34,962 bases of DNA from an uncultured Flavobacteriales bacterium (GTDB lineage: Bacteria; Bacteroidota; Bacteroidia; Flavobacteriales; Schleiferiaceae), in NCBI GenBank assembly GCA_937942085.1, contig CALDGA010000243.1, positions 1 through 34,962 on the forward strand. The letters run 5' to 3'. Below the pieces are notes generated by a model. The model saw only the letters and a program-made list of their open reading frames with translations, did not search any database and was not told where the DNA came from. How positions within the stretch are numbered: position 1 is the first letter of the stretch; each line of letters starts with the position of its first letter. Both the position numbers and the translations under genes were made by a program. Below are positions 1 through 34,962 of this stretch, in pieces.

Positions 1-1279
1 ACGTCCACGTCTCTACAAACTCTCCTTTCGGGTCGTAACGCTCGGCTTGCATCTTGGTGTTGAACTTTCTGAATGGTCTCGGATCATTGCCCCTACCGGC
101 ATTATAGAGCCAATTCCCATAATTCGATGCCGGGTCGTAATCGATCAAATGCTTTTCGAAAAAAGCAGCACCAGCGCGCCAGTCTATACCCATGTCGTGC
201 ACCAAATAGGATGCTACATTCTGTCTTCCACGATTGCTCATGAAACCTGTAGCTACGAGTTCTTTCATGTTGGCATCCACCAGCGGATCACCGGTATTTC
301 CTGTGGTCCATTTTTCAAAAGCTCTTGCATTAAAACCTTGCTTCAAAGGCTTTTCTGGCTGCAATCCGTGTGCAGTAAATAAATCCCTGCCGTGCTTAAG
401 CGCAATCCACTGGAAGTATTCGCGCCATAAAAGCTCGAAAAACAGCCAATAAGTACTCTCGTTTGCTTCGACCTCTTCCTCAAATCTTTTCAATTCGTCG
501 TAAATCTGTCGAGCACTGATACAGCCTAGGGCGAGAAATGCGGAAAATTTCGAACTGTAGTTGCGACCGATCATCCCGTTACGAGTTTGCTTGTAAGCCA
601 GGACATGTTCGCTTTCCCATAGGTAAAAGTCTAATTGTTCCCAAGCAGCCGAGGTACCGCCAGCAAATGGTACTGCGCTACGTTCATCTCGAACTACATC
701 CCACAGGTCTATACCGTCCGAACTCAAATCAAAATCATAGGGATCAAAGGAAGAAATTTCTGGCTCCTCAATCGGCGGCTGCACGCGAGAACGTTTTTCG
801 ACCTTACCTCTAAACCTCGAGAACACTTCAGGAATTTCATTCACACTAAAGGGCAAATCACTCTCCAAGTACAAAGTTCGCTCCGTTATTAAATGAACAG
901 ATACTCCTTGTTCTTTGGCTTTTTCGGTCAACTTGCGCTCGACTTGTCTTTCATTGTAGGCGAACTCTTTTGGTGCATAAATGGCTGTTGCTCTCGTTTT
1001 TGTGGCCAATTCTAGCAGCCCTTTTACCGGGTCAATACCACGCAGCACGAGCAACTCGCTTGAGTCTTTTTGCAAAGCATTGTTTAGGTCAGAGAGGCTT
1101 TCCATCAAAAAACGCTTTCTATGGTCGCCTTTGCCTTCTTCTACCCATTTAGTATTGTGCCACGACTCTTCATCAAAATACACAGGGATAACGGTATCAA
1201 AGCGAGAGTAGGCTTCGGCAACAGGGGTGTTGTCTCCTAATCGTAAGTTGTTTCTAAACCAGAGAATACAGGTACTCAT
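1..1279 (-). CDS. DASH-family cryptochrome (C-terminus cut by window edge)
   Basis: Reading the minus strand from the ATG at 1277-1279 gives an open frame of 426 codons that runs off the window start, so only the last few residues and the stop are missing. The N-terminus (STCILWFRNNLRLGDNTPV) is the photolyase antenna-domain start. The FAD domain carries RNGMIGRNYSSKFSAFLALG, LLWREYFQW, MSNRGRQNVASYL and NYGNWLYNAGRGNDPR, the DASH pattern. DASH proteins bind FAD and usually MTHF and repair CPDs in single-stranded or loop DNA; some may signal. The start codon overlaps the stop of the upstream photolyase gene (TAATG), so the two are probably translationally coupled. Family assignment is firm; photoreceptor versus repair role is open. 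Confidence 0.93.
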   Translation of the reverse strand, partial: MSTCILWFRNNLRLGDNTPVAEAYSRFDTVIPVYFDEESWHNTKWVEEGKGDHRKRFLMESLSDLNNALQKDSSELLVLRGIDPVKGLLELATKTRATAIYAPKEFAYNERQVERKLTEKAKEQGVSVHLITERTLYLESDLPFSVNEIPEVFSRFRGKVEKRSRVQPPIEEPEISSFDPYDFDLSSDGIDLWDVVRDERSAVPFAGGTSAAWEQLDFYLWESEHVLAYKQTRNGMIGRNYSSKFSAFLALGCISARQIYDELKRFEEEVEANESTYWLFFELLWREYFQWIALKHGRDLFTAHGLQPEKPLKQGFNARAFEKWTTGNTGDPLVDANMKELVATGFMSNRGRQNVASYLVHDMGIDWRAGAAFFEKHLIDYDPASNYGNWLYNAGRGNDPRPFRKFNTKMQAERYDPKGEFVETWT

Positions 1280-2808
1280 TACAGTGCTTCTAAGTTTTCT
1301 AAAACATAATTTGCTCGAGCTCTGATGGCTGCCTTATTTTCAGAGGACATCTTATCGAACGTGCGATACACCATGCCCAGCCTAAAGTTGTTGCCAAGCA
1401 GGTCTCTATGTCGTTCAAAGAAGTTCCAATAGAGCGAGTTAAAAGGACAACTATCAGAATCGGTTTTTGTTTTCTCGTTGTAGAAACAATTCTGGCAATA
1501 GTCGCCCATTTTCTTCATGTAGTTGGCGGATGCGACATAAGGTTTGGTTGCGATCCAGCCACCGTCTGCATATTGACTCATCCCGCGAGTGTTGGTGATT
1601 TCAACCCATTCAAAGGCATCAATGTAAATGCCTAAGTACCATAAATCCACTTCATCGGGATCTATGCCAGCAAGCAGCATAAAGTTGCCGGTAACCATAA
1701 GTCGCTGAATATGGTGTGCATAGGCATGGTCAAGGCTTTGGCCAATGGAGTGCGATAGGCACTTCATCTTCGTATTACCGTTCCAAAACCATTTGGGTAG
1801 AGGCGTTTTGTGGTTGAAGTAATTCTCGTTGCCAAAATCGGGCATGCGCTCCCAATAGACGCCTCTCATGAACTCTCGCCATCCCAAAATCTGACGGATG
1901 AAACCTTCGGCTGCATTCAATGGAATGTGCTCATTAGATCTGTAATAGGCCTCTGCACGCTGGCAAATGGTCAATGGGTCTATGAGCTTGACGTTTAAGG
2001 CAAATGATATTCTGCTATGGTACAGCGCCCAATCACTCACGGTCATTGCATCTTGAAAATCACCAAAGAATTGGAAACAATGTTCAAGCCACTGATCGAA
2101 TATGGCAAGTGCCTGCTCGGTAGAAGTTGGCCAATAATAATGTTTGGGATCCTTAAGGTTCCCGATGGTTGGCAAATCCGCCTTCAATACATCGGTATAT
2201 ACTTCCTCAACGTTTGTGGACGGCAAGTAGGGGGGAGGAATCAAGTGATTTTTTGGAAGTTTCTTTCGGTTTTGAGCGTCGTAGTTCCATTTGCCCCCGT
2301 GTGGCGCATTTCCTTCCATGAGAATGCCCGTGCGCTTCCTGAGTTTGCGGTAAAAGGTTTCCATAAGGAAGCTCTTTTTCCCCTTGAAAGTCGCAGTGAA
2401 TTCCTCCTTTGAGGATATGAAATGCTCGCTAGATACAAACGAGATAGGATGGCCTTTAGTGGCCAATTCTTCTAGGTTTTGTTGCACTCTTAGCTCATCC
2501 GGCTGCATAAATTGCAATGCTGAAACCTGTAGTTTATCACTAATGCTGTGCAAGATTTCGGCCAGCTCTACTTGCTCTGAATCGAGTATCCGATGGTAAT
2601 ATACCTCGTGACCCTGCTCTTTTAGCCTCACGGCAAAATTCCGCATGGCTTGTAGTATCCCAACCACCTTTTGGATGTGATGAGGCGCGTACGAACCTTC
2701 ACCACGACATTCTATGAATACATAGGTAATGGAGGCGTCGATTTTTTGAAACCAGGAATGCGTTGGATTAAGCTGATCGCCAAGAACTAATCGGAGGGTA
2801 CGTGACAT
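1279..2808 (-). CDS. FeS-BCP / PhrB-type (6-4) photolyase-cryptochrome
   Basis: A 509-residue protein of the iron-sulfur bacterial cryptochrome/photolyase group, typified by Agrobacterium PhrB, which repairs (6-4) photoproducts using FAD and a lumazine antenna. The ATG at 2806-2808 (MSRTLRLVLGDQLNP) is chosen because homologues begin this way; the longer frame from 2862 starts inside a terminator hairpin. With this start the four cysteines expected to bind a 4Fe-4S cluster fall at C350, C438, C441 and C454, the PhrB numbering as I recall it, within MKCLSHSIGQ and CQNCFYN...SCPFN. A histidine pair lies at 365-366, where PhrB has a histidine needed for repair. First gene of a two-gene operon with the DASH cryptochrome, overlapping it by one base. 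Confidence 0.95.
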   Translation of the reverse strand: MSRTLRLVLGDQLNPTHSWFQKIDASITYVFIECRGEGSYAPHHIQKVVGILQAMRNFAVRLKEQGHEVYYHRILDSEQVELAEILHSISDKLQVSALQFMQPDELRVQQNLEELATKGHPISFVSSEHFISSKEEFTATFKGKKSFLMETFYRKLRKRTGILMEGNAPHGGKWNYDAQNRKKLPKNHLIPPPYLPSTNVEEVYTDVLKADLPTIGNLKDPKHYYWPTSTEQALAIFDQWLEHCFQFFGDFQDAMTVSDWALYHSRISFALNVKLIDPLTICQRAEAYYRSNEHIPLNAAEGFIRQILGWREFMRGVYWERMPDFGNENYFNHKTPLPKWFWNGNTKMKCLSHSIGQSLDHAYAHHIQRLMVTGNFMLLAGIDPDEVDLWYLGIYIDAFEWVEITNTRGMSQYADGGWIATKPYVASANYMKKMGDYCQNCFYNEKTKTDSDSCPFNSLYWNFFERHRDLLGNNFRLGMVYRTFDKMSSENKAAIRARANYVLENLEAL

Positions 2809-2846
2809 GCTAAAATAACATTCCCAATGGCACGAAAGTTTAGGGC

Positions 2847-2874
2847 AAAAAAAAGGAGCCAATTTCTTGGCTCC
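2847..2874 (-). terminator. Rho-independent terminator, minus strand
   Basis: A perfect 8-bp stem (GGAGCCAA/TTGGCTCC, loop of 4 at 2863-2866) is followed on the minus strand by eight U (A run at 2847-2854). It terminates transcripts coming from the lipoprotein gene. It ends only 38 bases before the photolyase start codon, so that operon needs its own very close promoter or depends on readthrough. Confidence 0.85.
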
Positions 2875-3007
2875 GTACCCCTAACCTAATTCAAAGTTGC
2901 CCTTGAATACATGCAATATAGAAAGAACTTTTTTGTGTGTAGCCCGCTAATTACATATTGAGTATAAAAACTTATGAATTGACCCCTAGAAGACTGATTA
3001 TGAACTT

Positions 3008-3598
3008 TTAAAGGTAGACTTTGAAGGATTCTATGACTTCATCCAAACATTTTTCCTGCTTCAAGGAGAAAGAATCTGCAGGGCACTGCATTTGCAATTC
3101 AAGCAAAATGGAATTCGATAATGTATCTCTCATGACCAATTTATGCGCAATGACAAAATCCCAAGGTTCTTGCTCGTACCTTCCATAATTCACCCACCAA
3201 CCGTCTACGGTATCTTTTCGCTCAGTCACCCATGAATCTCTCGCCGCCATTGCCACAGATCTATAAATCAGTGCATTACTTTGCTCACTGACTGAGATAT
3301 ACGCGCCTTGTCGTTTGAAGGGCATTACGCGTAATACAATGGAATTCGTTTCAGCATCGTTGACTCTCGCAGCCTCGTAATAGTAGAAGTTTTGTTTAGC
3401 AAATTCAGGCATGCGCACCTGCCAATTATAGTCTAAACTGAAACTAAAGTCTATCGTTGGTAAGGCGTAATACTGGGCTTGCTCGAAGTTAAAGGTGTAA
3501 TAGGCGTCGAGGTTACAGTCTTCTTTTGAAGATTCTGTTGTACTTGAGCAGGAAATGAGTGTTCCTATCAACAATATTGCGCTTATCTTCGTTTTCAT
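3008..3598 (-). CDS. Predicted outer-membrane-anchored lipoprotein, unknown function
   Basis: A 196-residue protein starting at the ATG at 3596-3598 (MKTKISAILLIGTLISCSS). The N-terminus is a lipoprotein signal peptide with lipobox LISC, followed by a short Ser/Thr/Glu-rich linker and a compact domain rich in aromatic residues. I do not recognise a named domain; the shape resembles the many small lipoproteins of Bacteroidota. A longer in-frame start at 3655 would hide the signal peptide and overlap bshC, so it is rejected. The gene is divergent from bshC with only 11 bases between the start codons. It ends 134 bases before the terminator that separates it from the photolyase operon; the 2875-3007 stretch shows no other gene. 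Confidence 0.75.
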   Translation of the reverse strand: MKTKISAILLIGTLISCSSTTESSKEDCNLDAYYTFNFEQAQYYALPTIDFSFSLDYNWQVRMPEFAKQNFYYYEAARVNDAETNSIVLRVMPFKRQGAYISVSEQSNALIYRSVAMAARDSWVTERKDTVDGWWVNYGRYEQEPWDFVIAHKLVMRDTLSNSILLELQMQCPADSFSLKQEKCLDEVIESFKVYL

Positions 3599-3609
3599 CT
3601 TTGCTTGCA

Positions 3610-5139
3610 ATGACGTATCAATTTGTACCACATACTGAATCTGGTGTCCCTTCAAAGGTAATGAAGGACCTCATTGCTGGGGGTACATTTCTGGAATCAA
3701 TTGCCAACAGTCCGTACGATTGGAAAGCCTTCGCTACACAGGCCCAAAAACAGCAGGATTATTCTCAAGAGACACGCAGGATAGTCCTTCAGGCTTTGGA
3801 ACGACAAAACCCGGAACTTAGTGCTTCGGAACAGGCCTCTTTGGACGCTTTCCGAAACGGTGCTTTAACCATCACTACCGGGCATCAATTGATGGTTTGT
3901 GGCGGTACGGTATTCTTTGAAGCTAAAGTGCTCGGTGCCGTTGCATTGGCCCAGGCTGCTTCAAAGGAATTGGGCAAGGAGGTGGTTCCTGTATTTTGGA
4001 TGGCTAGTGAAGATCATGATTTTGAGGAGATTGCCTCTTTCCGAATAGGCGAACACCAATTCACTTGGAAGCAGCCAGATGCAAAAGGTCCGGTGGGGTA
4101 TTTGCCTACCCAAGATTTAGCCGACCAATTATCCTCATGGCTCGAGCAAGTACCGTTGAACGAAGCGCAGAAAAAATTGGTCCAACCGAGACTTAAAGCG
4201 TATCGCGAGGGTAAAAATCTTGCAGAAGCAACGCGTCAATGGGTGCGACAGTGGGCCGAAGGATTGGGACTCCTCGTCTTGGACGGTCAGGATATGGCGC
4301 TCAAAGGCCATGCTGCTCCACTTTGGACGGCCGAGATGGGCGGTCAGTACTCCACGCTCATTCAAGCACAGACCGAAGCCCTTGTTGCACAAGGGTATAA
4401 AGCACAGGTATTTCCTCGTGAGATCAATCTATTCGATTTGCGCAATGGCGATCGTCAACGCTTCGAACAGCCCGACCCGGAGTGTCCGTATTTCTACGTT
4501 AGTCCCAATGCTTTAATGCGTCCACTGTACCAGGAGTGGTTGTTGCCCAATCTGGCCTATGCCGGAGGGGGTGGAGAGTTGGCCTATTGGTTGCAGCTGG
4601 GCAGTGCGTTCGAACATTTAGGTCGTCCCATGCCTCTCTTGTATTTGCGCGATAGTGTACTGGTCCAAGATTCCAAGCTCACTAAAAACTTGAAGAAATT
4701 GGGCATTAGTCTGTCCGATCTACTCGCCTCAAATGTGGAAAAGCTCAAAGGGGAGTTGTTGGGTAAAAACACTGTCTTACAGGCCGAAGGAGAGTCGCTC
4801 CAAGCCCCATTGATGGAAGCTATTGACCAATGGAATGCGTCGCTTATAGAGCGTTATCCTGAGTTGAAACAGCACGCGGCGGCGTTGAAAGTGAAGATGG
4901 AAAAATTGGCCCAACGTACTTCAGAAACCAGGTACCGCTCACAGAAACGTCGTCATGAAGAGCTCATGCGTAGCGTTGAAAGTGCGATCCATGCAGTTTA
5001 CCCCGGGGGCGTTTTTTGGGAGCGCCGTGCTTCGTATGCGGATTTAGTGGGAATCCTAGGTCAAGATCCGCGGGATGCCATGGTTGAAAACATGTCAACA
5101 ATAAAGGCCGGAACCATAGTCATACAGCCAGATTTTTAG
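3610..5139 (+). CDS. bshC: BshC, bacillithiol biosynthesis cysteine-adding enzyme
   Basis: A 509-residue protein matching BshC, the putative ligase that joins cysteine to glucosaminyl-malate in the last step of bacillithiol synthesis, the low-molecular-weight thiol that replaces glutathione in Firmicutes and many Bacteroidota. Recognisable segments are ALTITTGHQLMVCGG, VFWMASEDHDFEEIASF, YAGGGGELAYWLQL and a C-terminal helical region with RRHEELMRSVESAIHAVYPGG. Start chosen at the ATG at 3610 (MTYQFVPHTESG), because the family begins directly with this segment; the upstream frame from 3559 overlaps the divergent lipoprotein. bshA and bshB are not in the window. guaA follows after 15 bases. 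Confidence 0.93.
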   Translation: MTYQFVPHTESGVPSKVMKDLIAGGTFLESIANSPYDWKAFATQAQKQQDYSQETRRIVLQALERQNPELSASEQASLDAFRNGALTITTGHQLMVCGGTVFFEAKVLGAVALAQAASKELGKEVVPVFWMASEDHDFEEIASFRIGEHQFTWKQPDAKGPVGYLPTQDLADQLSSWLEQVPLNEAQKKLVQPRLKAYREGKNLAEATRQWVRQWAEGLGLLVLDGQDMALKGHAAPLWTAEMGGQYSTLIQAQTEALVAQGYKAQVFPREINLFDLRNGDRQRFEQPDPECPYFYVSPNALMRPLYQEWLLPNLAYAGGGGELAYWLQLGSAFEHLGRPMPLLYLRDSVLVQDSKLTKNLKKLGISLSDLLASNVEKLKGELLGKNTVLQAEGESLQAPLMEAIDQWNASLIERYPELKQHAAALKVKMEKLAQRTSETRYRSQKRRHEELMRSVESAIHAVYPGGVFWERRASYADLVGILGQDPRDAMVENMSTIKAGTIVIQPDF

Positions 5140-8265: not shown

Positions 8266-8745
8266 ATGCCCCTACATAAAGCCCTCGATATCGGTGACCG
8301 TATTCCGGACTTCGAATTACAAGACCAACACGGTCAATGGATCAAAAGAGAAGATTTTGAAGGGAAACCTCTTGTGATCTTCTTTTATCCAAAAGACCAC
8401 ACGCCTGGCTGTACGGCTCAAGCGTGTTCATTTAGAGATTATGAAAGTGCGTTTCAAGCCGCGGGAGCTCAGGTTATTGGTATAAATGATGCTGAGGTAA
8501 TCATGCACAGAAGCTTTACCGATAAGTATGATTTAAAATACCCGGTACTCAGTGACCCTGATCATGTGGTACGAAAATCATTCGGTGCACCTGGTTTGCT
8601 TTTTAATACCGTAGCGAATAGAATTACTTATGTCACTGATAGTTCCCATAAAGTGGCGTATATTTTCAAAAGTTTATTTCGAGCCAACGATCACGTGTTG
8701 GAAAGCTTGGATTATGTAAAAAAATTGGTTCATGAAACCCATTGA
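8266..8745 (+). CDS. bcp: Thioredoxin-dependent thiol peroxidase, PrxQ/Bcp type
   Basis: A 159-residue peroxiredoxin that reduces hydrogen and lipid peroxides. The peroxidatic cysteine C49 lies in TPGCTAQACSFRD with a resolving cysteine C54 five residues on, the intramolecular disulfide arrangement of the PrxQ/Bcp group. The phrase VIFFYPKDHTPGCT is diagnostic. Start at the ATG at 8266 gives the usual IGDRIPDFELQDQHG beginning. It overlaps the start of crtZ by 14 bases, so it is probably co-transcribed with the carotenoid genes; pairing a membrane-lipid antioxidant pathway with a lipid peroxidase makes physiological sense, but that link is inference. The reductant may be thioredoxin or a bacilliredoxin, given bshC nearby. 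Confidence 0.95.
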   Translation: MPLHKALDIGDRIPDFELQDQHGQWIKREDFEGKPLVIFFYPKDHTPGCTAQACSFRDYESAFQAAGAQVIGINDAEVIMHRSFTDKYDLKYPVLSDPDHVVRKSFGAPGLLFNTVANRITYVTDSSHKVAYIFKSLFRANDHVLESLDYVKKLVHETH

Positions 8746-9199
8746 GATTAGTACCGCATTGTTGACCTTTTTCGCGATGGAAGGTGTCGCCTGGGGTGCC
8801 CATAAATACCTCATGCATGGTGTTTTATGGTTTCTGCACGACGATCACCATACCAAGACGCCTGGTGCCTTAGAAAAGAATGATACGTTCTTTTTGATTT
8901 TCGCCATTCCATCTTGGCTGTGCATTATGCTTGGTTTATTCAACGGAAATGGAATCAGTGTGGCCATTGGGGCGGGTATTGCTTTATATGGCTTTGCTTA
9001 TGCCTTAGTGCATGAACTCTTTATTCACCAAAGACTGCCGGTTTTAAAGAAATCTCGTTTTGTATACTGGGAAGCGGTTCGATTGGCGCACAAGATGCAC
9101 CACCGCCACCTAGGGAAAGAAAACGGAGAGAATTTTGGGATGTTATGGGTACATCCAAAATACATCCGACAGGTACGCCAAATGCGCGCCAATTCTTAG
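8732..9199 (+). CDS. crtZ: Beta-carotene 3-hydroxylase CrtZ
   Basis: A 155-residue integral membrane di-iron hydroxylase of the CrtZ/fatty acid hydroxylase superfamily, adding the 3-hydroxyl to beta-ionone rings. All four histidine boxes are visible: H24-x4-H29 (HKYLMH), H36-x2-H39H40 (HDDHH), H94-x4-H99 (HELFIH) and H120-x2-H123H124 (HKMHH). Hydrophobic segments at about 8-24, 52-68 and 73-93 fit a membrane protein. It starts inside the peroxiredoxin gene and is followed by the lycopene cyclase gene 5 bases on, or overlapping, depending on that gene's start. Length is typical of bacterial CrtZ. Confidence 0.95.
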   Translation: MKPIEISTALLTFFAMEGVAWGAHKYLMHGVLWFLHDDHHTKTPGALEKNDTFFLIFAIPSWLCIMLGLFNGNGISVAIGAGIALYGFAYALVHELFIHQRLPVLKKSRFVYWEAVRLAHKMHHRHLGKENGENFGMLWVHPKYIRQVRQMRANS

Positions 9200-9204
9200 A
9201 AACC

Positions 9205-9912
9205 GTGTTAGAAACCAAATGGCTTTATTTATTGCTCAACCTATTCACGGTGAGCGTACCGTTGATACGAAGCTTTGAGCCTCGCATCGCGTACTATAAA
9301 AGTTTTGGGTCCTTGAGTAAAGCCATGCTCATCTGGAGCGGCTTCTTTTTGATTTGGGATATATGGTATACGGATCTTGGCGTGTGGGGATTCACCCCAG
9401 ATTACCTCAGTGGGGTAGAGCTGTTTGGATTGCCTTTGGGTGAGTATTTGTTCTTTATCACCGTGCCTTTCGCCTGTGTATTTATTTACAAATGCATGGA
9501 ACTATTCTTCCCAGATGGTATTCTGAGCGTGGCAGTGGCGAATCGAATCAGCCAGTTGCTCATCCCTTTTACCCTTGTCGTTGGATTGATGTCATTGGAC
9601 AAGTTGTATACCGCGGCGACCTTCTTGTTACTGGGGGTGGCGCTCATTTATGTGGCTTGGATTGCTCGTTGTGCCTGGCTTCCTAGGTTCTATGAGAGCT
9701 ATATTATCGCTCTGCTTCCCTTCTTTTTGAAAAATGGAATCTTAACAGGTTCCTTCTTGGAAAGCCAAGTCGTTTGGTACAACGATGCGGAAAACCTAGG
9801 CATTCGGTTGGGTACTATTCCCTTTGAGGACATCTTCTATGGAATGCTGCTAATCTTAGGGATTGTGTACTTCTATGAAAAATTTGAGGCGACCCGGAAG
9901 AGCAATCTTTAA
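9205..9912 (+). CDS. crtYcd: Lycopene cyclase, CrtYcd (CarR/heterodimer-fused) type
   Basis: A roughly 235-residue, multi-helix membrane protein with two lycopene-cyclase domains of the type fused in flavobacterial CrtYcd, which forms beta-ionone rings on lycopene or gamma-carotene. The first domain includes SFEPRIAYYKSFG, FLIWDIWYTDLGVWGF and LPLGEYLFFITVPFACVFIY; the second has the matching signature TIPFEDIFYGML. I chose the GTG at 9205 because homologues start just before LYLLLNL and it leaves a 5-base gap after crtZ; an ATG at 9145 in the same frame would add 20 residues overlapping crtZ. Oddity: the first signature usually reads P-x-E-E but here is PLGE, losing the first acidic residue, while the second (PFED) is intact. 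Confidence 0.88.
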   Translation: MLETKWLYLLLNLFTVSVPLIRSFEPRIAYYKSFGSLSKAMLIWSGFFLIWDIWYTDLGVWGFTPDYLSGVELFGLPLGEYLFFITVPFACVFIYKCMELFFPDGILSVAVANRISQLLIPFTLVVGLMSLDKLYTAATFLLLGVALIYVAWIARCAWLPRFYESYIIALLPFFLKNGILTGSFLESQVVWYNDAENLGIRLGTIPFEDIFYGMLLILGIVYFYEKFEATRKSNL

Positions 9913-9940
9913 AGTAAGGCTGCCTTTTCTTCTAAGGTCA

Positions 9941-9948
9941 TACCTTTA
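9941..9948 (+). promoter_or_regulatory. Candidate -7 box for the terC-family gene
   Basis: TACCTTTA matches 5 of the 6 fixed positions of TAnnTTTG and sits 22 bases before the ATG at 9971, in the 58-base gap after the lycopene cyclase gene. No clear -33 TTG is seen at normal spacing. Confidence 0.3.
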
Positions 9949-9970
9949 GACCGCAAAAAATCGCAAACCT

Positions 9971-10702
9971 ATGGAAGCGCTATTGACCGCCCCAGGACTA
10001 TTATCATTGGCCACCTTGACCTTTTTGGAGATTGTACTAGGCATTGATAATATCATATTCATCTCCCTTGTTTCGAATGATTTAGAGGAAAGTCAGCAGC
10101 CACTGGCGCGCCGTTTGGGTCTGGCGTTGGCGTTGGGGTTCAGAATATTAATGTTACTGGGAATTACCTGGCTTATTGGCTTGACTGCGCCGTTGTTTCA
10201 TCTTGGCGATCATGCGGTTTCCGGGAGAGACGCCATTTTGTTTGTAGGAGGAGTATTCCTGTTGGCCAAATCCTCTTCTGAGATTTTTAAGAAGACGGAA
10301 GGGAGGGGACATGGAGAGCATGCACATAAACCAAAATCTTTTGTTGGAGTGATTATTCAGATAGGGTTACTGGATATTGTGTTCAGCTTTGATAGCGTAC
10401 TTACGGCAATAGGAATGACTCATGAGTTGGTCATCATGATTGTGGCAGTGGTCATTTCAATGGTGATCATGTTGACTTTTGCGAAGCCTATTGCGCATTT
10501 CATTGAGAAGCACGTGAGCTTGCAGATCTTGGCACTTAGTTTCTTGATTATGATCGGGACTGTTTTGGTCGCTGAAAGTGCACATGTAGAAATCCCGAAA
10601 CCCTATGTCTACAGTTCTGTAGGATTTGCGCTGATTGTCCAATTATTGAGCATTCGCGCGGCTGAAAAGTCCAAATCTACTGGTAGCGGCCCACAAGCCT
10701 AA
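9971..10702 (+). CDS. TerC family integral membrane protein
   Basis: A 243-residue polytopic membrane protein of the TerC family (PF03741). Characteristic acidic transmembrane motifs are FLEIVLGIDNIIFISL near residue 18-33 and LLDIVFSFDSVLTAIG in the second half, separated by a His-rich cytoplasmic loop (GRGHGEHAHKPKS). The family is linked to tellurite resistance, manganese export and metal loading of exported proteins; the substrate here is unknown. About seven hydrophobic segments are present and length is normal. It sits between two carotenoid blocks but has its own candidate promoter box. Its last 26 bases overlap, tail to tail, the end of the next gene on the opposite strand. Confidence 0.92.
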   Translation: MEALLTAPGLLSLATLTFLEIVLGIDNIIFISLVSNDLEESQQPLARRLGLALALGFRILMLLGITWLIGLTAPLFHLGDHAVSGRDAILFVGGVFLLAKSSSEIFKKTEGRGHGEHAHKPKSFVGVIIQIGLLDIVFSFDSVLTAIGMTHELVIMIVAVVISMVIMLTFAKPIAHFIEKHVSLQILALSFLIMIGTVLVAESAHVEIPKPYVYSSVGFALIVQLLSIRAAEKSKSTGSGPQA

Positions 10703-11246
10703 AATAATCCTTGAGGACAGCCTGATTGGCCTTCTCATTGCTTTGTGTACCGTTCAATAGGAGGGAATCCCTTCCTTGAACGATGAAGGCACGGCGGTAA
10801 TCCAGCGCATTTTGAAACACCCAAGCGGCCAGTCTATAGTGGTCCGCGAAGTCCATATGATCAAGGCTTAGGGTAGCCATTGAATCCCCCAATGCGATAT
10901 GCACCGTATCTGCGAAATAACGTCGTGCATTCGGCTCGGCAATGATATACGCCTGGTCTGTACGCCAAGAATTGATGATGGTAAAGTTCAACAACGGTTG
11001 GGTCGTGTCGTAGGTGCACTTTAAATACCGGTGGACTTTAAATCCTTGTTGGGCCAATTCTGTTCGCTCCTCCGTTCTGTATTGGTGAATGCGTGTGTTG
11101 TTGAAGAAGATTTCGTCGCTCTCCTTCACCAAATAATTGGGTTCCAAATCCCAATGCTGCAACTGCTGCTCATAGGGCCATAGGATGCTCAGCAGCAACA
11201 TCGCCGTAAAGAAAATTAAGGCAACGCGGTATAGTTTCTTTTCCAT
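10677..11246 (-). CDS. Membrane-anchored protein of unknown function
   Basis: A 189-residue protein I do not recognise. The N-terminus is a short basic stretch and one hydrophobic segment (residues 7-24, VALIFFTAMLLLSILW), either an uncleaved anchor or a signal peptide, followed by about 165 residues of soluble, presumably periplasmic, domain containing YHRY-like basic/aromatic stretches and one cysteine (KCTYDTTQPL). Start at the ATG at 11244-11246 is the only sensible one. It is convergent with the terC-family gene, the two overlapping by 26 coding bases, and divergent from crtD 67 bases away. No terminator separates it from the terC gene. Confidence 0.75.
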   Translation of the reverse strand: MEKKLYRVALIFFTAMLLLSILWPYEQQLQHWDLEPNYLVKESDEIFFNNTRIHQYRTEERTELAQQGFKVHRYLKCTYDTTQPLLNFTIINSWRTDQAYIIAEPNARRYFADTVHIALGDSMATLSLDHMDFADHYRLAAWVFQNALDYRRAFIVQGRDSLLLNGTQSNEKANQAVLKDYFRLVGRYQ

Positions 11247-11313
11247 CGTGTTTACAACAATAAACGGAGTTGGTTGTTTAATGTATACCCCTAAGAAAAC
11301 ACCTTAACGCCAC

Positions 11314-12801
11314 ATGAAAAAGAATCTCGAATCAGTAGCGATCATAGGATCAGGAGTAGCTGGACTCAGCGCAGCCATACGTTTGGCCCTGCAGGGAAAG
11401 CAAGTCATTGTTTTTGAGCAGAATCCCTATACGGGAGGTAAAGTTACTGCGTTCGAGAAGCAGGGATTTAGATTCGATATGGGACCCTCCTTATTCACTA
11501 TGCCTCATTTAGTGGAGGAGTTGTTCGAATTAGCCGGGAGGACCCCCAAGGATTACTTTCAATACCACACACACGATGAGGTTTGCAGGTATTTCTGGCT
11601 GGATGGAACACAAATAACATTATACCCTTCAGTGGAAAAAAACGTGGAAGCCATTACCACCGTTTTTGACAAAGAGTCCGGAAAACGAGTCCGAAAGTAT
11701 TTTGATGATGCGCGCAAGAAATTCGAGCTCACGGCACCTTTCTTTTTAGAGAGTAGCCTACATAAAATGAAAACCTTCCTTTCGCCGAGGGTGTTAAAGG
11801 TGGTTTCGGAAATCCCAAGATTAGGGTTGTTTTCGACTTTGGACGATCAAAATAAGCGTTACTTCAAAGAGCCTAAGCTGGTCCAATTATTCAATAGATA
11901 TGCGACCTATAATGGTTCTTCACCGTATCAAACGCCAGGGATCATGCAGATGATTTCGCATTTGGAACACGGTATGGGAACTCATTTTCCCGTCGGTGGA
12001 ATGCACGCTATTTCCCAGAGCCTGACCAAACTTGCCAAGGAATTAGGTGTGCAGTTTGAGCTGAATTCTAAAGTCGAGCAAATCCTTATTGAGGAGAAGA
12101 AAGTACGCGGCGTAGTGGTCAACGGGGCGAAACGGAAGTTTGACCTAGTGGTGTGTAATTCCGATATCAAACACGCATACCAAGAGTTATTGCCTGAGCA
12201 GGTGCGTCGTCCTAAGAAGACCTTGGCACAAGAACCTAGCTCCAGTGCATTGATATTTTATTGGGGTGTAAGACAAACCTTCCCTAAATTGGACCTACAC
12301 AACATCATCTTCAGCGAAGATTATAAGGAGGAATTCGATCGGATTCGTACCAATGGGCCATTTTGGGAGGATCCAACCATTTATATTCATATTTCCAACC
12401 GATTAGAGGTTAATGACGCCCCAAAGGGTAAGGATTCTTGGTTTGTGATGGTGAATGTATCTTACGATCAAGGTCAGGATTGGGGAGATATAGTGGGTAA
12501 AGTGCGACGCAAGCTTATTGAACGTATGTCCGCTATGCTGGGACAAGATATTACGCCCTTGATTGAAACCGAGGAAATTTTAACCCCGCCGCAAATCCAG
12601 CACAGAACATCCAGTGTGGGCGGAGCGCTCTACGGAACAAGCTCGAACGAGCGAATGGCGGCATTTTTAAGGCATTCCAATAAAAGTAGCTCGGTCAAAG
12701 GGTTGTACTTTTGTGGTGGATCAGCACATCCGGGCGGCGGTGTGCCCTTATGTATATTGAGCGGTAAAATTGCCGCGGAATGGATAGAAGAAGATGAATG
12801 A
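11314..12801 (+). CDS. crtD: Carotenoid 3,4-desaturase (CrtD), CrtI-type FAD enzyme
   Basis: A 495-residue member of the phytoene desaturase/CrtI superfamily. The FAD-binding Rossmann motif is at residues 10-35 (IIGSGVAGLSAAIRLALQGK), followed by YTGGKV and GFRFDMGPSLFT. The C-terminal motif YFCGGSAHPGGGVPLCILS is of the CrtD type, unlike the GAGTHPGAGIPG style of classical CrtI. Direct 8-base overlap with cruF, the carotenoid 1-hydroxylase gene, supports a 3',4'-desaturase acting after CruF on the acyclic end of gamma-carotene derivatives. Without crtI in view, a phytoene desaturase role cannot be fully excluded. Start at the ATG at 11314 (MKKNLESVAIIGSG). Membrane-associated. Confidence 0.88.
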   Translation: MKKNLESVAIIGSGVAGLSAAIRLALQGKQVIVFEQNPYTGGKVTAFEKQGFRFDMGPSLFTMPHLVEELFELAGRTPKDYFQYHTHDEVCRYFWLDGTQITLYPSVEKNVEAITTVFDKESGKRVRKYFDDARKKFELTAPFFLESSLHKMKTFLSPRVLKVVSEIPRLGLFSTLDDQNKRYFKEPKLVQLFNRYATYNGSSPYQTPGIMQMISHLEHGMGTHFPVGGMHAISQSLTKLAKELGVQFELNSKVEQILIEEKKVRGVVVNGAKRKFDLVVCNSDIKHAYQELLPEQVRRPKKTLAQEPSSSALIFYWGVRQTFPKLDLHNIIFSEDYKEEFDRIRTNGPFWEDPTIYIHISNRLEVNDAPKGKDSWFVMVNVSYDQGQDWGDIVGKVRRKLIERMSAMLGQDITPLIETEEILTPPQIQHRTSSVGGALYGTSSNERMAAFLRHSNKSSSVKGLYFCGGSAHPGGGVPLCILSGKIAAEWIEEDE

Positions 12802-13432
12802 TTTAGGGAAAATCCAATTATTGACGGCCAAGTACGGCGGCTACGTCCTCATCTTTTTCCACACCATAGGATTATTTTTACTTGGGGCCGATTGGCGCCA
12901 AAATTTCGTATTCCTTACGCCCTACAACCTACTCTTAATGTTGGTTGTCTTCTTGCTGGCCAGCGATCGTCCGAAGCATTGGGGGCTCTACATGGCGCCC
13001 ATAGTACTAGGCTACATCATCGAGGTTATTGGCACCAATAGCGGATGGCCTTTTGGTGCCTACACCTACGGTACAGCTTTAGGGCCGAGAGTATTCAGTA
13101 CTCCTCTAATGATTGGCGTATTGTGGTGGGTGTTGATTCGAGCTTGGTTTGATTTGTCGGATCGATGGACGCAAAATGCGTGGGCAAAATCACTCATCAC
13201 TGGAACGGCTATGGTTTTGATGGACGTGTTGATTGAACCTGTAGCGATAGAATTGGGCTTTTGGACTTGGGCGGAGGTCGAAGTTCCTGTGGCCAATTAT
13301 ATTTCGTGGTTCGTCCTTGCCACATTGTTCGCACGGGCCACGGCAGGCGGCACTACGAAAAACCCTCAGAGCCCTTGGGTCATAGCGGTACTTACTGTGT
13401 TTTTTGCCGTACTCAACATAGCGTATGCATAA
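12794..13432 (+). CDS. cruF: Carotenoid 1-hydroxylase CruF
   Basis: A 212-residue integral membrane protein of the DUF422/CruF carotenoid biosynthesis family (PF04240). The two conserved signatures are visible: GYIIEVIGTNSGWPFGAYTYG at about 76-96 (also in homologues, containing E and N of the active region) and DVLIEPVAIELGFWTW in the second half. CruF adds water to the psi-end of gamma-carotene-type carotenoids, giving the 1'-hydroxyl of saproxanthin and myxol. Translationally coupled to crtD by an 8-base overlap. Seven or so hydrophobic helices fit the family. A bidirectional terminator begins right after its stop codon. Confidence 0.92.
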   Translation: MNDLGKIQLLTAKYGGYVLIFFHTIGLFLLGADWRQNFVFLTPYNLLLMLVVFLLASDRPKHWGLYMAPIVLGYIIEVIGTNSGWPFGAYTYGTALGPRVFSTPLMIGVLWWVLIRAWFDLSDRWTQNAWAKSLITGTAMVLMDVLIEPVAIELGFWTWAEVEVPVANYISWFVLATLFARATAGGTTKNPQSPWVIAVLTVFFAVLNIAYA

Positions 13433-18896: not shown

Positions 18897-18903
18897 TAAT
18901 CTC

Positions 18904-20601
18904 ATGTCAGACGACGGTCAGAAGGTCATTTTTTCGATGTCCCGAGTGAGTAAGATCTTGCCACACAATAACAAGGCCATTCTCAAGGACATCTACCTTT
19001 CTTTTTTCTATGGAGCCAAAATAGGCATCTTAGGTTTAAACGGTTCAGGTAAATCCACACTTTTAAAAATCATCGCCGGGGTAGAAAAGAGCTACCAGGG
19101 AGATGTGGTGTTCGCCCCAGGCTACACGGTCGGCTATTTAGAGCAAGAACCGGTGCTTGAAGCGGGGAAGACCGTGATGGACATCGTCAAAGAAGGTGCA
19201 GCGGAAACTGTAGCGGTCTTGGAGGAATACAACAGTATTAACGACCAGTTCGGCTTGCCGGAGGTCTATGAAAACCCAGATAAGATGGACGCGCTGATGG
19301 CGCGACAGGCGGAGCTTCAAGATAAAATTGATGCCACCAACGCTTGGGAACTTGATACTATGTTGAGCCGTGCGATGGATGCCCTGAACTGTCCACCCGC
19401 GGACCAATTAGTCGATAACCTCTCCGGTGGAGAAGCGCGCCGCGTTGCCCTATGTCGCCTACTCATCCAAACTCCGGACGTTCTTCTGTTGGATGAGCCT
19501 ACCAACCACTTGGACGCTGAGAGCATCTTGTGGTTAGAGCAGCATTTGCAGCAATACAAAGGAACGGTCATCGCCGTAACGCACGACCGTTATTTCCTAG
19601 ATAACGTAGCCGGATGGATCCTAGAACTCGACCGTGGGGAAGGCATTCCTTGGAAGGGGAATTACAGCTCTTGGTTGGATCAAAAAACCAAACGCCTGGC
19701 CCAAGAAGAGAAGCAAGCCTCCAAGCGTCGTAAAACACTCGAACGAGAGTTGGAGTGGGTTCGCATGAATCCGAAAGGCCGCCAAAGCAAGAGCAAAGCT
19801 CGTTTGAACAACTACGAAGCCATGCTTGCCCAAGAGGATAAGGAGAAGGAAAGCAAGTTGGAAATCTTCATACCTGCCGGACCGCGATTAGGAACGAACG
19901 TGATCAACGCGAAAAACGTGCGCAAGGCCTTCGGCGAGAAGCTCCTGTACGATGATTTGAACTTCACCCTTCCGCCTGCCGGAATCGTAGGAATTATCGG
20001 TCCAAACGGAGCCGGTAAGACGACGATTTTTAAAATGATCATGGACCAATTACAACCTGATGGCGGAAGTTTCGACGTAGGGGACACGGTCAAAATATCC
20101 TATGTTGACCAGAGCCACGAGAAGATGAATCCTGAGAAAACCATCTTCGAAGTTATTGGCGATGGCACCGAGGAAGTCATGCTCGGAAATCAACGCACCA
20201 ACGCACGTGCCTACCTCAGTAGATTCAATTTTGCCGGTGGCGATCAAGGCAAAAAAGTCGGTGTACTTTCTGGGGGTGAGCGCAACCGTTTGCACCTGGC
20301 CATGGCGCTCAAAGAAGGCGGTAATGTGTTGCTTTTAGATGAGCCTACCAATGATTTGGATGTCAATACATTACGGGCGTTGGAAGAAGCCTTAGAAAAC
20401 TTCGCAGGATGTGCTGTAATTATCTCCCACGACCGCTGGTTCTTGGACCGTGTGTGTACTCACATCTTGGCCTTCGAAGGGGACTCACAAGTTTATTCGT
20501 TTGAAGGCTCGTTCTCGGAATACGAAGAGAACAAGCTGAAGCGATTGGGACGATCGGAACCGACTCGATTCAAGTACAAGAAGTTGATGAAAAACGACTA
20601 A
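18904..20601 (+). CDS. ettA: EttA, energy-dependent translational throttle ABC-F ATPase
   Basis: A 565-residue soluble ABC-F protein with two ATPase domains and no membrane part. Domain 1 has Walker A GLNGSGKST (44-52), signature LSGGEARRVALCRLL and Walker B LLLDEPTNHLD; domain 2 has GPNGAGKTT, LSGGERNRLHLAMAL and LLLDEPTNDLD. The linker KRRKTLERELEWVRMNPKGRQSKSKAR and the C-terminal end (RFKYKKLMKND) are those of EttA, which binds the ribosomal E-site and gates the first elongation step according to the ADP/ATP ratio. Length is close to E. coli EttA (about 555). Followed by a terminator. Confidence 0.96.
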   Translation: MSDDGQKVIFSMSRVSKILPHNNKAILKDIYLSFFYGAKIGILGLNGSGKSTLLKIIAGVEKSYQGDVVFAPGYTVGYLEQEPVLEAGKTVMDIVKEGAAETVAVLEEYNSINDQFGLPEVYENPDKMDALMARQAELQDKIDATNAWELDTMLSRAMDALNCPPADQLVDNLSGGEARRVALCRLLIQTPDVLLLDEPTNHLDAESILWLEQHLQQYKGTVIAVTHDRYFLDNVAGWILELDRGEGIPWKGNYSSWLDQKTKRLAQEEKQASKRRKTLERELEWVRMNPKGRQSKSKARLNNYEAMLAQEDKEKESKLEIFIPAGPRLGTNVINAKNVRKAFGEKLLYDDLNFTLPPAGIVGIIGPNGAGKTTIFKMIMDQLQPDGGSFDVGDTVKISYVDQSHEKMNPEKTIFEVIGDGTEEVMLGNQRTNARAYLSRFNFAGGDQGKKVGVLSGGERNRLHLAMALKEGGNVLLLDEPTNDLDVNTLRALEEALENFAGCAVIISHDRWFLDRVCTHILAFEGDSQVYSFEGSFSEYEENKLKRLGRSEPTRFKYKKLMKND

Positions 20602-20659: not shown

Positions 20660-20689
20660 ATCTTGAGACTCAACCTATCACAACCAACT

Positions 20690-21841
20690 ATGAGAATCAA
20701 TCTATCTGATGCCCAGCAGGAAACGCTGGAAATGATCCGTCAAACTGCACAAGATTTTGCCGCTACTAAAATCAAACCACACTTTATGGAGTGGGATGAG
20801 GCGCAATATTTTCCAGTGGATTTGTTCAGAGAAATGGGCCAATTAGGCTTTATGGGGGTCCTCGTTCCAGAAACTTACGGTGGAGCAGGCCTCGGCTACC
20901 AAGAGTACATCACCATCATCGATGAAATCGCGCAGGTTTGCGGCTCCATCGGACTAAGCGTTGCGGCGCACAACAGCCTGTGTACCGGGCATATCCTGCA
21001 ATTTGGCACGGAAGAACAGAAGCAGAAGTGGTTGCCAAAACTCGCCACCGCGGAGTGGATTGGCGCTTGGGGTTTGACCGAAACCGGCACAGGCTCTGAT
21101 GCGGGTGGCATGGACACTACAGCAGTGCTCGATGGCGACCATTGGGTGTTGAATGGTTCAAAGAATTGGATCACACACGCTATTTCCTCAGAGATTGCAG
21201 TGGTCATGGCCAGAACAGGCGAGAAAGGCGATAGCCATGGCATGAGCGCTTTCGTGGTGGAAAAGGGTACGCCTGGATTTAGTGCTGGGAACAAAGAAAA
21301 CAAACTTGGTATGCGCGCTTCAGAAACCGCTGCCTTGTATTTTGATAATTGCCGTATTCCCAAAGAAAACATCCTTGGCCAGAAAGGAGAGGGCTTTATC
21401 CAAGCTATGAAGATTCTTGACGGCGGAAGGATTTCTATTGCAGCCTTGAGTATCGGTATAGCCAAAGGGGCTAAAAATGCAGCCGTTGCCTACGCAGATG
21501 AGCGCCAACAGTTCGGTAAAAAAATTCGTCAATTCCAGGGTGTGAGTTTTAAACTCGCCGAGATGGCCACAAAAATCTATGGTGCTGAGCTCATGACTAG
21601 ACATGCTGCGGCACTAAAAGAGGAGGGTAAGCCAATGACCCAAGAGAGTGCAATGGCGAAACTCTATGCCTCCGAAATTTCAACAGAAGTTGCAAATGAA
21701 GCCGTACAAGTTTTTGGAGGTTATGGGTATACCAAAGACTACCCTGTAGAGAAGTTCTACAGAGATTGTAAGTTGTGTACAATCGGAGAGGGAACCTCTG
21801 AAATTCAGAAGGTTGTGATTTCAAGAAACATGTACAAGTAG
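20690..21841 (+). CDS. Acyl-CoA dehydrogenase
   Basis: A 383-residue flavoprotein of the short/medium-chain acyl-CoA dehydrogenase family, oxidising acyl-CoA to trans-2-enoyl-CoA with FAD and passing electrons to ETF. Visible hallmarks are AWGLTETGTGSDAGGMDT, WVLNGSKNWITHA, ADERQQFGKKIRQFQGVSF, VQVFGGYGYTKDYPVEKFYRD and the C-terminal IGEGTSEIQ, where E367 is the expected catalytic base. Start at ATG 20690 (MRINLSDAQQ) rather than the TTG at 20663. Substrate chain length cannot be read. Its stop codon (21839-21841) is one base from the stop of the oppositely oriented DUF2256 gene, leaving no room for a terminator. Confidence 0.95.
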   Translation: MRINLSDAQQETLEMIRQTAQDFAATKIKPHFMEWDEAQYFPVDLFREMGQLGFMGVLVPETYGGAGLGYQEYITIIDEIAQVCGSIGLSVAAHNSLCTGHILQFGTEEQKQKWLPKLATAEWIGAWGLTETGTGSDAGGMDTTAVLDGDHWVLNGSKNWITHAISSEIAVVMARTGEKGDSHGMSAFVVEKGTPGFSAGNKENKLGMRASETAALYFDNCRIPKENILGQKGEGFIQAMKILDGGRISIAALSIGIAKGAKNAAVAYADERQQFGKKIRQFQGVSFKLAEMATKIYGAELMTRHAAALKEEGKPMTQESAMAKLYASEISTEVANEAVQVFGGYGYTKDYPVEKFYRDCKLCTIGEGTSEIQKVVISRNMYK

Positions 21842-21842
21842 A

Positions 21843-21974
21843 TTATTTACTGCGTCGACATCGCTCGCTACAATACTTCACTTCGTCCCAATTCTTTTCC
21901 CACTTTTTGCGCCAAGTAAAGGGTCGTTCACACACGGGGCAAACTTTTTCGGGTAAATGAGGTTTCTTATGCAT
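21843..21974 (-). CDS. DUF2256 family zinc-ribbon microprotein
   Basis: A 43-residue protein read on the minus strand from the ATG at 21972-21974 to TAA at 21843-21845, beginning [15 protein letters not shown] and ending [11 protein letters not shown]12, C15, C35 and C39 form a CxxC...CxxxC zinc-ribbon pattern around the conserved [16 protein letters not shown] core, which identifies DUF2256 (PF10013). The family has no known function and is commonly found beside cryptochrome/photolyase genes. Here it is boxed in: one base from the acyl-CoA dehydrogenase stop and zero bases from the likely start of the divergent DUF2805 gene. Its promoter must lie inside the DUF2805 coding region. Confidence 0.9.
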
Positions 21975-22295
21975 ATGTCGGAAGCAACATCACCTCAAGA
22001 AGAAAGTTCAAAACCCAGTTCAGAATTGGACCGAAGAACCATTGACCGCATCGTGGAAATGGCTTGGGAAGATCGCACCCCATTTGATGCTATAACCTTG
22101 CAATTTGGACTTGCAGAAGCAGAGGTCATCAAGCTGATGCGTCGAGAAATGAAGCCCTCGTCGTTCCGCATGTGGCGTGCCCGTGTGCAGGGTAGGAGCA
22201 CCAAGCATCAAGCTTTGCGTAACTTCAAAGTAGGCCGTAACCGAAGCGACCAACAACGACACATTTCTTTGAATAAAATATCAAAGCGTCGATAA
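21975..22295 (+). CDS. DUF2805 / TIGR03643 family protein
   Basis: A 106-residue protein from the ATG at 21975 ([10 protein letters not shown]). The conserved region at about residues 22-80 includes [36 protein letters not shown] and [17 protein letters not shown], which identify DUF2805 (PF10985, TIGR03643). The middle part looks like a helix-turn-helix and the C-terminal tail is strongly basic ([18 protein letters not shown]), so nucleic-acid binding is plausible but unproven. ATGs at 21957 and 21969 are in frame but overlap the DUF2256 gene. It co-occurs with DUF2256 and photolyase genes in other bacteria. Being downstream of the acyl-CoA dehydrogenase with no terminator between, it may be transcribed from that promoter. 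Confidence 0.9.
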
Positions 22296-22319: not shown

Positions 22320-22362
22320 AATAGGTTAATGCGTTCGCTCATTGTTAGCAATGAGGCCTATT
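22320..22362 (+). terminator. Possible terminator after the DUF2805 gene
   Basis: Hairpin CTCATTG-TTAG-CAATGAG (22338-22355), enclosed by a further AATAGG/CCTATT pairing (22320-22325 with 22357-22362) and followed by a T-rich tract. The U run is interrupted by C, so strength is uncertain; it could also act as an operator for the next gene. Confidence 0.5.
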
Positions 22363-34650: not shown

Positions 34651-34962
34651 CGTTCGCGACGACCTGGGTTGGTGTGTTTAGCGAGAATTCGCTTAGATTC
34701 TACCGCAGCAGATTTTGATTTTTTCGCAGCATACAGCGTGTCGCTGGCCTGTTTTCGAGCCTTGGAAAGATTGATAATCGGTTCTGCAGGATAATCGCCC
34801 AGGCTGATGTTTTCCATCGCTAATTGCAAAGGAGGAATGTTCCACGGCTCGTGGATGTATTCCACCGTTACTTGGGCCAATTCTGGTATCCATTCCTTGA
34901 TAAATATTCCCTTAGGGTCGTGATCCTGACTCTGTTTGATCGGATTGTAGATGCGAATGGTA
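34647..34962 (-). CDS. Cryptochrome/photolyase family protein, C-terminal part only
   Basis: An open minus-strand frame enters from the window end and stops at TAG (34647-34649). The 104 visible residues include RIYNPIKQSQDHDPKGIFIK, EWIPELAQVTVEYIHEPW and NIPPLQLAMENISLGDYPAEPI, the conserved end of the FAD-binding domain of the cryptochrome/photolyase family (COG0415), followed by a Lys/Ser/Ala-rich tail ending NPGRRER. The N-terminal antenna domain and most of the FAD site are outside the window, so CPD photolyase and cryptochrome cannot be told apart. This is the third photolyase-family gene in the window. It converges on the response regulator gene. Confidence 0.88.
   Translation of the reverse strand, partial: TIRIYNPIKQSQDHDPKGIFIKEWIPELAQVTVEYIHEPWNIPPLQLAMENISLGDYPAEPIINLSKARKQASDTLYAAKKSKSAAVESKRILAKHTNPGRRER

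Follow-up and report, generated by a model that had tools for sequence, protein, structure and literature searches.

In the phylum sample, the small protein family DUF2256 appears to be tightly linked, and DUF2805 more loosely linked, to iron-sulfur photolyases, and we regard this as the more valuable result of the present analysis. Both genes are probably helpers of light-driven repair, since both tend to accompany photolyases in related bacteria. We consider it probable that DUF2256 and DUF2805 are photolyase/cryptochrome accessory genes, foremost of the FeS-BCP type (PF04244), and that the locus at which they meet head to head is the compacted remnant of a photolyase cluster. The arrangement itself is real, compact and conserved in the genus. 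No function is assigned to either family, and the near one-to-one presence of DUF2256 and iron-sulfur photolyases in the phylum points to a concrete, testable role in light-driven DNA repair.

Geometry and conservation of the locus

The window, i.e., the whole stretch of 34,962 nucleotides that was analyzed, is contig C243 of a 2.26 Mb genome that is 72% complete. The following features were considered:

5..439, minus strand: photolyase FAD-binding domain, near the left edge of the window
1279..2862, minus strand: DPRP/FeS-BCP-type photolyase gene (PF04244), ~19 kb from the small-gene pair
18904..20601, plus strand: ettA, ABC-F ATPase, the upstream neighbour; found in 19/21 genus loci, the remaining 2 being cut by a contig end
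20627..20653, plus strand: strong terminator-like hairpin 3' of ettA, between ettA and acdH; 10 bp stem, T-rich tail
20690..21841, plus strand: acdH, acyl-CoA dehydrogenase; alternative in-frame TTG at 20663, stop codon TAG at 21839-21841
21843..21974, minus strand: DUF2256 (PF10013), a protein of 43 aa in which four cysteines are conserved; start codon 21972-21974, stop codon 21843-21845
21972..21977, no strand: abutting start codons CAT/ATG (CATATG), found in 4/21 genus genomes
21975..22295, plus strand: DUF2805/TIGR03643, small basic protein with a predicted helical core; ATG 21975-21977
22338..22355, plus strand: weak terminator-like hairpin 3' of DUF2805; the same scan gave none here in the other genus loci
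34737..34958, minus strand: part of a photolyase FAD-binding domain, at the right edge of the window

A single base (21842) separates acdH from DUF2256. A sequence-only reading of this DNA had placed DUF2256 on the minus strand with one base to the acdH stop and none to the DUF2805 start, and had pointed to the CATATG at 21972-21977. All of this is correct: acdH ends at 21841, DUF2256 occupies 21843-21974 and an in-frame ATG of DUF2805 opens at 21975; the geometry also bears out its remark that no space is left for a conventional intergenic promoter. The start of DUF2805 is ambiguous, with in-frame ATGs at 21957 and 21969, both overlapping DUF2256, and a TTG at 22026, which leaves 51 nt. Adenines at positions -3, -6, -12 and -13 upstream of the start are favoured in Flavobacterium (passages of PMC6847099), and the full set is absent at all four candidate starts. 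A second start-to-start contact lies ~3 kb away, where a cbpD-like gene (18905, minus strand) and ettA (18904, plus strand) overlap by their longest-ORF starts at 18903-18906, so that such a contact is not unique in the window.

The same-genus set comprised 25 genomes, the window's own included, of which 21 carry both families and 4 carry neither. The order acdH (plus), DUF2256 (minus), DUF2805 (plus) is kept in 21/21 genomes holding these genes, the same large T9SS-type protein gene follows DUF2805 in 21/21 loci, and the neighbourhood around the three genes is syntenic throughout the genus. Tail-to-tail spacing of acdH and DUF2256 ranges from a gap of 2 nt to an overlap of 12 nt. Abutting start codons occur only in G000, G005, G006 and G008; in the remaining 17 genomes a DUF2805 start codon (ATG in 10, TTG in 7) lines up with the window protein's residue 9 and leaves a gap of 21-23 nt, and a few of these also offer in-frame starts farther upstream, e.g., an ATG at 2 nt in G004. 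The abutment looks like a derived state of its subclade, because these genomes lack the residue-9 start codon, so that translation must begin at another in-frame start. Across the 21 genomes the DUF2256 protein is kept while most of its codons vary, which suggests purifying selection.

No close acdH match was found in the four genus genomes without either family (best match 59% identity over 58 residues), and thus they lack the entire segment. With completeness at 58-91%, the likely explanation is incomplete assembly, and deletion is a possible alternative.

Window positions 1-5139, holding a photolyase gene, the DPRP gene and two further genes, show 93-99% protein identity to G022, and between 17 and 31 kb the genes show 81-99% identity to G005, the small-gene pair sitting in this G005-like part. 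Recombination could account for the G022-like left end, as could a chimeric contig. The genome's second DPRP gene, on contig C13, is 61% identical to the first.

The two small proteins and their photolyase neighbours

DUF2256 was assigned by its Pfam family PF10013 with 82.7 bits against a cut-off of 25, and no NCBIfam model matched it. DUF2805 scored 122.2 bits for PF10985 (cut-off 22.5) and 119.5 bits for TIGR03643 (cut-off 66.55). Members of DUF2256 have a WRKKW core in common, and the cysteines of the C-x2-C ... C-x3-C pattern (C12, C15, C35 and C39) are invariant in 17/17 and 28/28 aligned members; the family has been placed in the TRASH clan (excerpt of PMC4047054). Its predicted model reached a pLDDT of 83 and a pTM of 0.46, and a profile search of PDB sequences gave only matches at E 0.038 or worse (ribosomal L24, zinc fingers).

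For DUF2805, helices are predicted at residues 20-32, 37-44, 48-58 and 61-71, a block with pLDDT 86-92 (whole model 74.1, pTM 0.54), and this predicted four-helix core is compatible with an HTH. Its listed fold matches are weak and include HTH regulators and sigma region 4 at Foldseek E-values of 0.8 or worse; the best VIA-align Z among them, 5.6, was to a spliceosome chain. Naming a fold family was rejected, as the structural matches are too weak. A profile search of PDB sequences with DUF2805 returned nothing at E 1. The stretches of open-access text around the names DUF2256 and DUF2805 leave photolyases unmentioned, and no open-access paper was found under the names COG4338, PF10985 or TIGR03643; PF10013 turned up mostly under Plasmodium or apicomplexan titles, and in a Xanthomonas paper (PMC8612006) it may denote the Pfam family.

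Co-occurrence was counted in a phylum sample of 148 genomes, the window's own included and the rest drawn at ≥95% completeness. DUF2256 lies above cut-off in 49 genomes and PF04244 likewise in 49; 46 genomes hold both, 3 only DUF2256, 3 only PF04244 and 96 neither, a below-cut-off DUF2256 match in G070 being excluded from the counts. The association with photolyases and cryptochromes that the sequence-only reading had put forward is thus strong within the phylum. DUF2256 stands without PF04244 in G127, G192 and G137 (the last a partial hit), and PF04244 without DUF2256 in G121, G136 and G197. DUF2805, found in 42/148 genomes, coincides with PF04244 in 37, with 5 genomes holding only DUF2805, 12 only PF04244 and 94 neither. 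The two small families coincide in 37 genomes, with 12 holding only DUF2256, 5 only DUF2805 (two of them just a divergent paralogue of ~76 bits) and 94 neither. Fisher p-values for co-occurrence are tiny (6e-31 and 4e-19), but they come from genomes that are related and not independent. Divergent DUF2805 paralogues (~76-84 bits) were seen in G038, G053, G112, G123, G139 and G196 (genus g15), in G038 and G053 without DUF2256 or PF04244.

Position adds to these counts. Among the 46 genomes with both, 21 have DUF2256 no more than 6 kb from PF04244, on the same strand in 21/21 and upstream in 20/21. Among non-genus relatives, 13 of the 15 with DUF2256 have a photolyase-family gene within ~130 nt of it, the two exceptions being G026 and G056, whose copy contains an internal TAG. 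DUF2805 loci were surveyed as the best 80 of at least 577, nearly all from Bacteroidota: a photolyase-family gene lies within 5 kb in 46 of these 80 (41/64 where at least 5 kb is available on both sides) and in none of the other 34, 16 of the 80 having a short flank. DUF2256 is in the locus for 40 of these best 80, and in 31 of the 40 a photolyase-family gene lies no more than 300 nt from it. Many clusters in Flavobacteriaceae have the order DUF2256>PL>DPRP>PL>..DUF2805>..PL>, and a Polaribacter cluster (L188) adds GTP cyclohydrolase I, an SDR, glutathione peroxidase and a TspO-like gene. Locus L167 has the order PL<DPRP<DUF2256<DUF2805>, the layout that would be expected before the pair and the photolyase genes separated. 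The window's DPRP gene and edge photolyase domains follow an order common to G022, G023 and G012. Carotenoid-type genes (crtZ- and crtI-like from reading translations) lie at 8732-13432, between the DPRP gene and the pair, and the region therefore looks rich in photoprotection genes.

Outside the genus, a plasmid sample provided 14 annotated stretches with flanks of 4-6 kb, and a photolyase/cryptochrome gene is listed on 4 of the 14 in PLSDB gene tables that are incomplete; one further stretch, which came unannotated, is outside this count. Acinetobacter haemolyticus reads photolyase>DUF2256> <DUF2805, and photolyase genes lie near DUF2256 or DUF2805 in V. pelagius, Salinivibrio and V. parahaemolyticus. 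No photolyase is listed in the flanks of DUF2256 in Erwinia, Hirschia, Agrobacterium, Spirosoma and Thioclava, of DUF2805 in Nostoc, V. coralliilyticus (cut by the record start) and Spirosoma, or of the pair in Acinetobacter nosocomialis and Pseudoalteromonas. As judged from these records, the association is looser beyond the phylum. On the Thioclava plasmid (L146 5995-6791) DUF2256 lies 5 nt from an SOS-response-associated peptidase gene and on the Agrobacterium plasmid (L142 1-6132) near error-prone polymerase genes, neighbours that may point to a broader connection with DNA damage.

The several plasmid copies of one or the other family that have no photolyase nearby, together with the syntenic genus neighbourhood and the second start-to-start overlap in the window, are what would be expected if these were independent small genes with intragenic promoters, held side by side by genus synteny only and sharing no function. 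We consider this improbable, because the families are linked repeatedly in differing contexts and orientations: the two lie within 6 kb of each other in 14 of the 37 phylum genomes with both, with domain hits less than 100 nt apart in G000, G096 and G135, and they stand tail to tail in Acinetobacter and head to head in Pseudoalteromonas sp. THAF3 (102 nt gap).

Under the favoured reading of accessory genes in a compacted cluster remnant, the ancestral layout would have been clustered, as judged from a few loci and not from a tree. The photolyase genes would then have come to lie 12-21 kb away in the genus, leaving the head-to-head pair beside acdH, and compaction of the pair may have gone so far that the 5' control region of each gene sat inside its neighbour, as the geometry suggests. 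DUF2256, a small protein of putative metal-binding type, would help the photolyase, and DUF2805, a basic protein that may be HTH-like, would act on DNA or on expression in the same programme.

Transcription across the pair

The gene order raises the possibility of a true noncontiguous operon, in which an acdH-DUF2805 mRNA carries the whole complement of DUF2256 and mutual silencing of the two transcripts works through collision and RNase III. The plus-minus-plus layout resembles the S. aureus case (described in part of PMC7154746) and is present in 21/21 genus loci. It recurs in L147 with another upstream partner, where an unrelated-looking plus-strand ORF of 833 codons overlaps the DUF2256 end by 13 nt. 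A hairpin scan of the plus strand from acdH to DUF2805 found no terminator-like structure in the window, in agreement with the sequence-only reading; in two of the 21 genus genomes (G001 and G014), however, terminator-like plus-strand hairpins with T-rich tails lie inside DUF2256, which counts against such an operon. Hairpins were also found within the acdH coding region in several relatives, and a plus-strand hairpin follows ettA in 13 of the 19 genus loci covering that site.

Gene order outside the genus weighs against such an operon as well. Among the other relatives within a set of 60, 14 carry both families, and head-to-head adjacency occurs in 0/14: the genes are on different contigs in 10, far apart in 2 (G031 and G049) and 2.8-2.9 kb apart in 2 (G041 and G054), where both lie on one strand with photolyase genes in between. 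Transcript overlap or mutual antisense control is thus not a general requirement. An acdH gene beside the pair was not found outside the genus among the loci searched. Head-to-head loci with less than 120 nt between domain hits number 8 among the best 80 of at least 577 DUF2805 loci, and of these L149 and L150 belong to the window's genus (matching G014 and G010); elsewhere, L147, L148, L151, L167, L175 and L187 have 39-94 nt between starts, and in G096 the head-to-head domain hits are 85 nt apart. Asked whether the genes are ever adjacent in relatives, the comparison therefore gives a divided answer, with adjacency in the genus as well as in several distant lineages and none in most other genera examined. 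Taking both sides together, we regard the noncontiguous operon with reciprocal antisense control as unlikely.

Promoter motifs were examined with the element TAnnTTTG, described for Bacteroidota (parts of PMC6847099). The strict box is found upstream of DUF2256 in 0/21 and of DUF2805 in 1/21 genus genomes, with ~2/21 expected by shuffling, and its near absence upstream of DUF2805 would suit the operon. Among 15 control genes in the window the strict box precedes only 4, so that missing consensus promoters are weak evidence. Neither TAnnTTTG nor the F. psychrophilum variant TAnnTTGY gave a conserved site in the genus loci; partial matches (5/6) are limited to subsets of the genomes, such as the 7/21 with TAAGTTTT 45 nt upstream of DUF2256. 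At other loci, 7/71 DUF2805 upstream regions carry the strict box against 2.8 expected. A sigma-70-type scan was at chance (3 found, 2.4 expected), with two of the sites on the plus strand upstream of DUF2805. The hairpin and box results fit acdH read-through into DUF2805 and fit unrecognized promoters as well.

Codon invariance within DUF2256 was considered as a trace of a hidden cis-element. Codons 9-11 (GAA AAA GTT) and that of K4 are invariant across the 21 genomes (for E9, across the 18 having E). Within the first 15 codons, invariant codons account for 4/9 conserved columns in DUF2256, 5/12 in ettA, 4/7 in guaB, 2/7 in acdH, 0/12 in padR and 0/5 in MT17350. Invariant three-codon windows number 1/9 in DUF2256, 5/336 in ettA, 1/275 in guaB, 1/84 in cbpD and 0 in the rest; in acdH, none of the 116 windows of invariant residues holds four invariant codons in a row. 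A cis-element is not claimed, because two neighbouring genes show the same codon invariance at their 5' ends.

With neither a terminator-like hairpin nor a Bacteroidota-type promoter box seen from acdH to DUF2805 in the window, overlapping transcription at the locus, as in a noncontiguous operon, is plausible. In the compacted cluster remnant that we favour, read-through from acdH would probably supply at least part of the DUF2805 transcription, and DUF2256 would probably be transcribed from a site inside DUF2805; as the simplest reading, the overlap of the transcripts would be a side effect of compaction, causing modest interference at most. A more elaborate proposal makes DUF2256 a dedicated partner or maturation factor of iron-sulfur photolyases whose level is set against a DNA-binding DUF2805 through the acdH-driven overlapping unit, coupling fatty-acid metabolism to light repair; we find this very hard to credit. 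The locus is also a clean natural setting in which to ask if the overlap of neighbouring transcripts is regulatory or merely tolerated.

Likeness to known systems

The sequence-only reading had seen a new regulatory design in mutual antisense control of the pair. This novelty is not supported, as noncontiguous operons and excludons have already been described (sections of PMC7154746) and antisense transcripts are reported to overlap 12% of CDSs in Flavobacterium psychrophilum (excerpt of PMC9723704), so that transcript overlap alone would be unremarkable. The layout is instead a candidate for the kind of operon already described. The S. aureus operon menE-menC-MW1733-ytkD-MW1731 likewise has an opposite-strand gene between same-strand genes (same sections of PMC7154746), and overlapping mRNAs are possible in both. 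In contrast to that operon, the interposed gene here measures 132 nt, only three genes are involved, acdH is the partner in one genus, and the case is known from sequence alone.

A second likeness is to the neighbourhoods of FeS-BCP/prokaryotic (6-4) photolyases, in which DUF2256, and often DUF2805, adjoins PF04244 in many phylum genomes and in Acinetobacter haemolyticus. The window's genus differs from these in that its photolyase genes lie 12-21 kb off and the small genes stand apart. PhrB and CryB are members of this FeS-BCP/prokaryotic (6-4) kind. In Pseudomonas, the light-inducible LitR regulon includes phrB, cryB and folE, and PME7070 is thought to be co-transcribed with cryB in P. mendocina (portions of PMC9758184); the words DUF2256 and DUF2805 are absent from that paper. 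The Polaribacter DUF2805 cluster resembles the regulon, as far as those portions describe it, in that it also combines photolyase genes with GTP cyclohydrolase I and an SDR.
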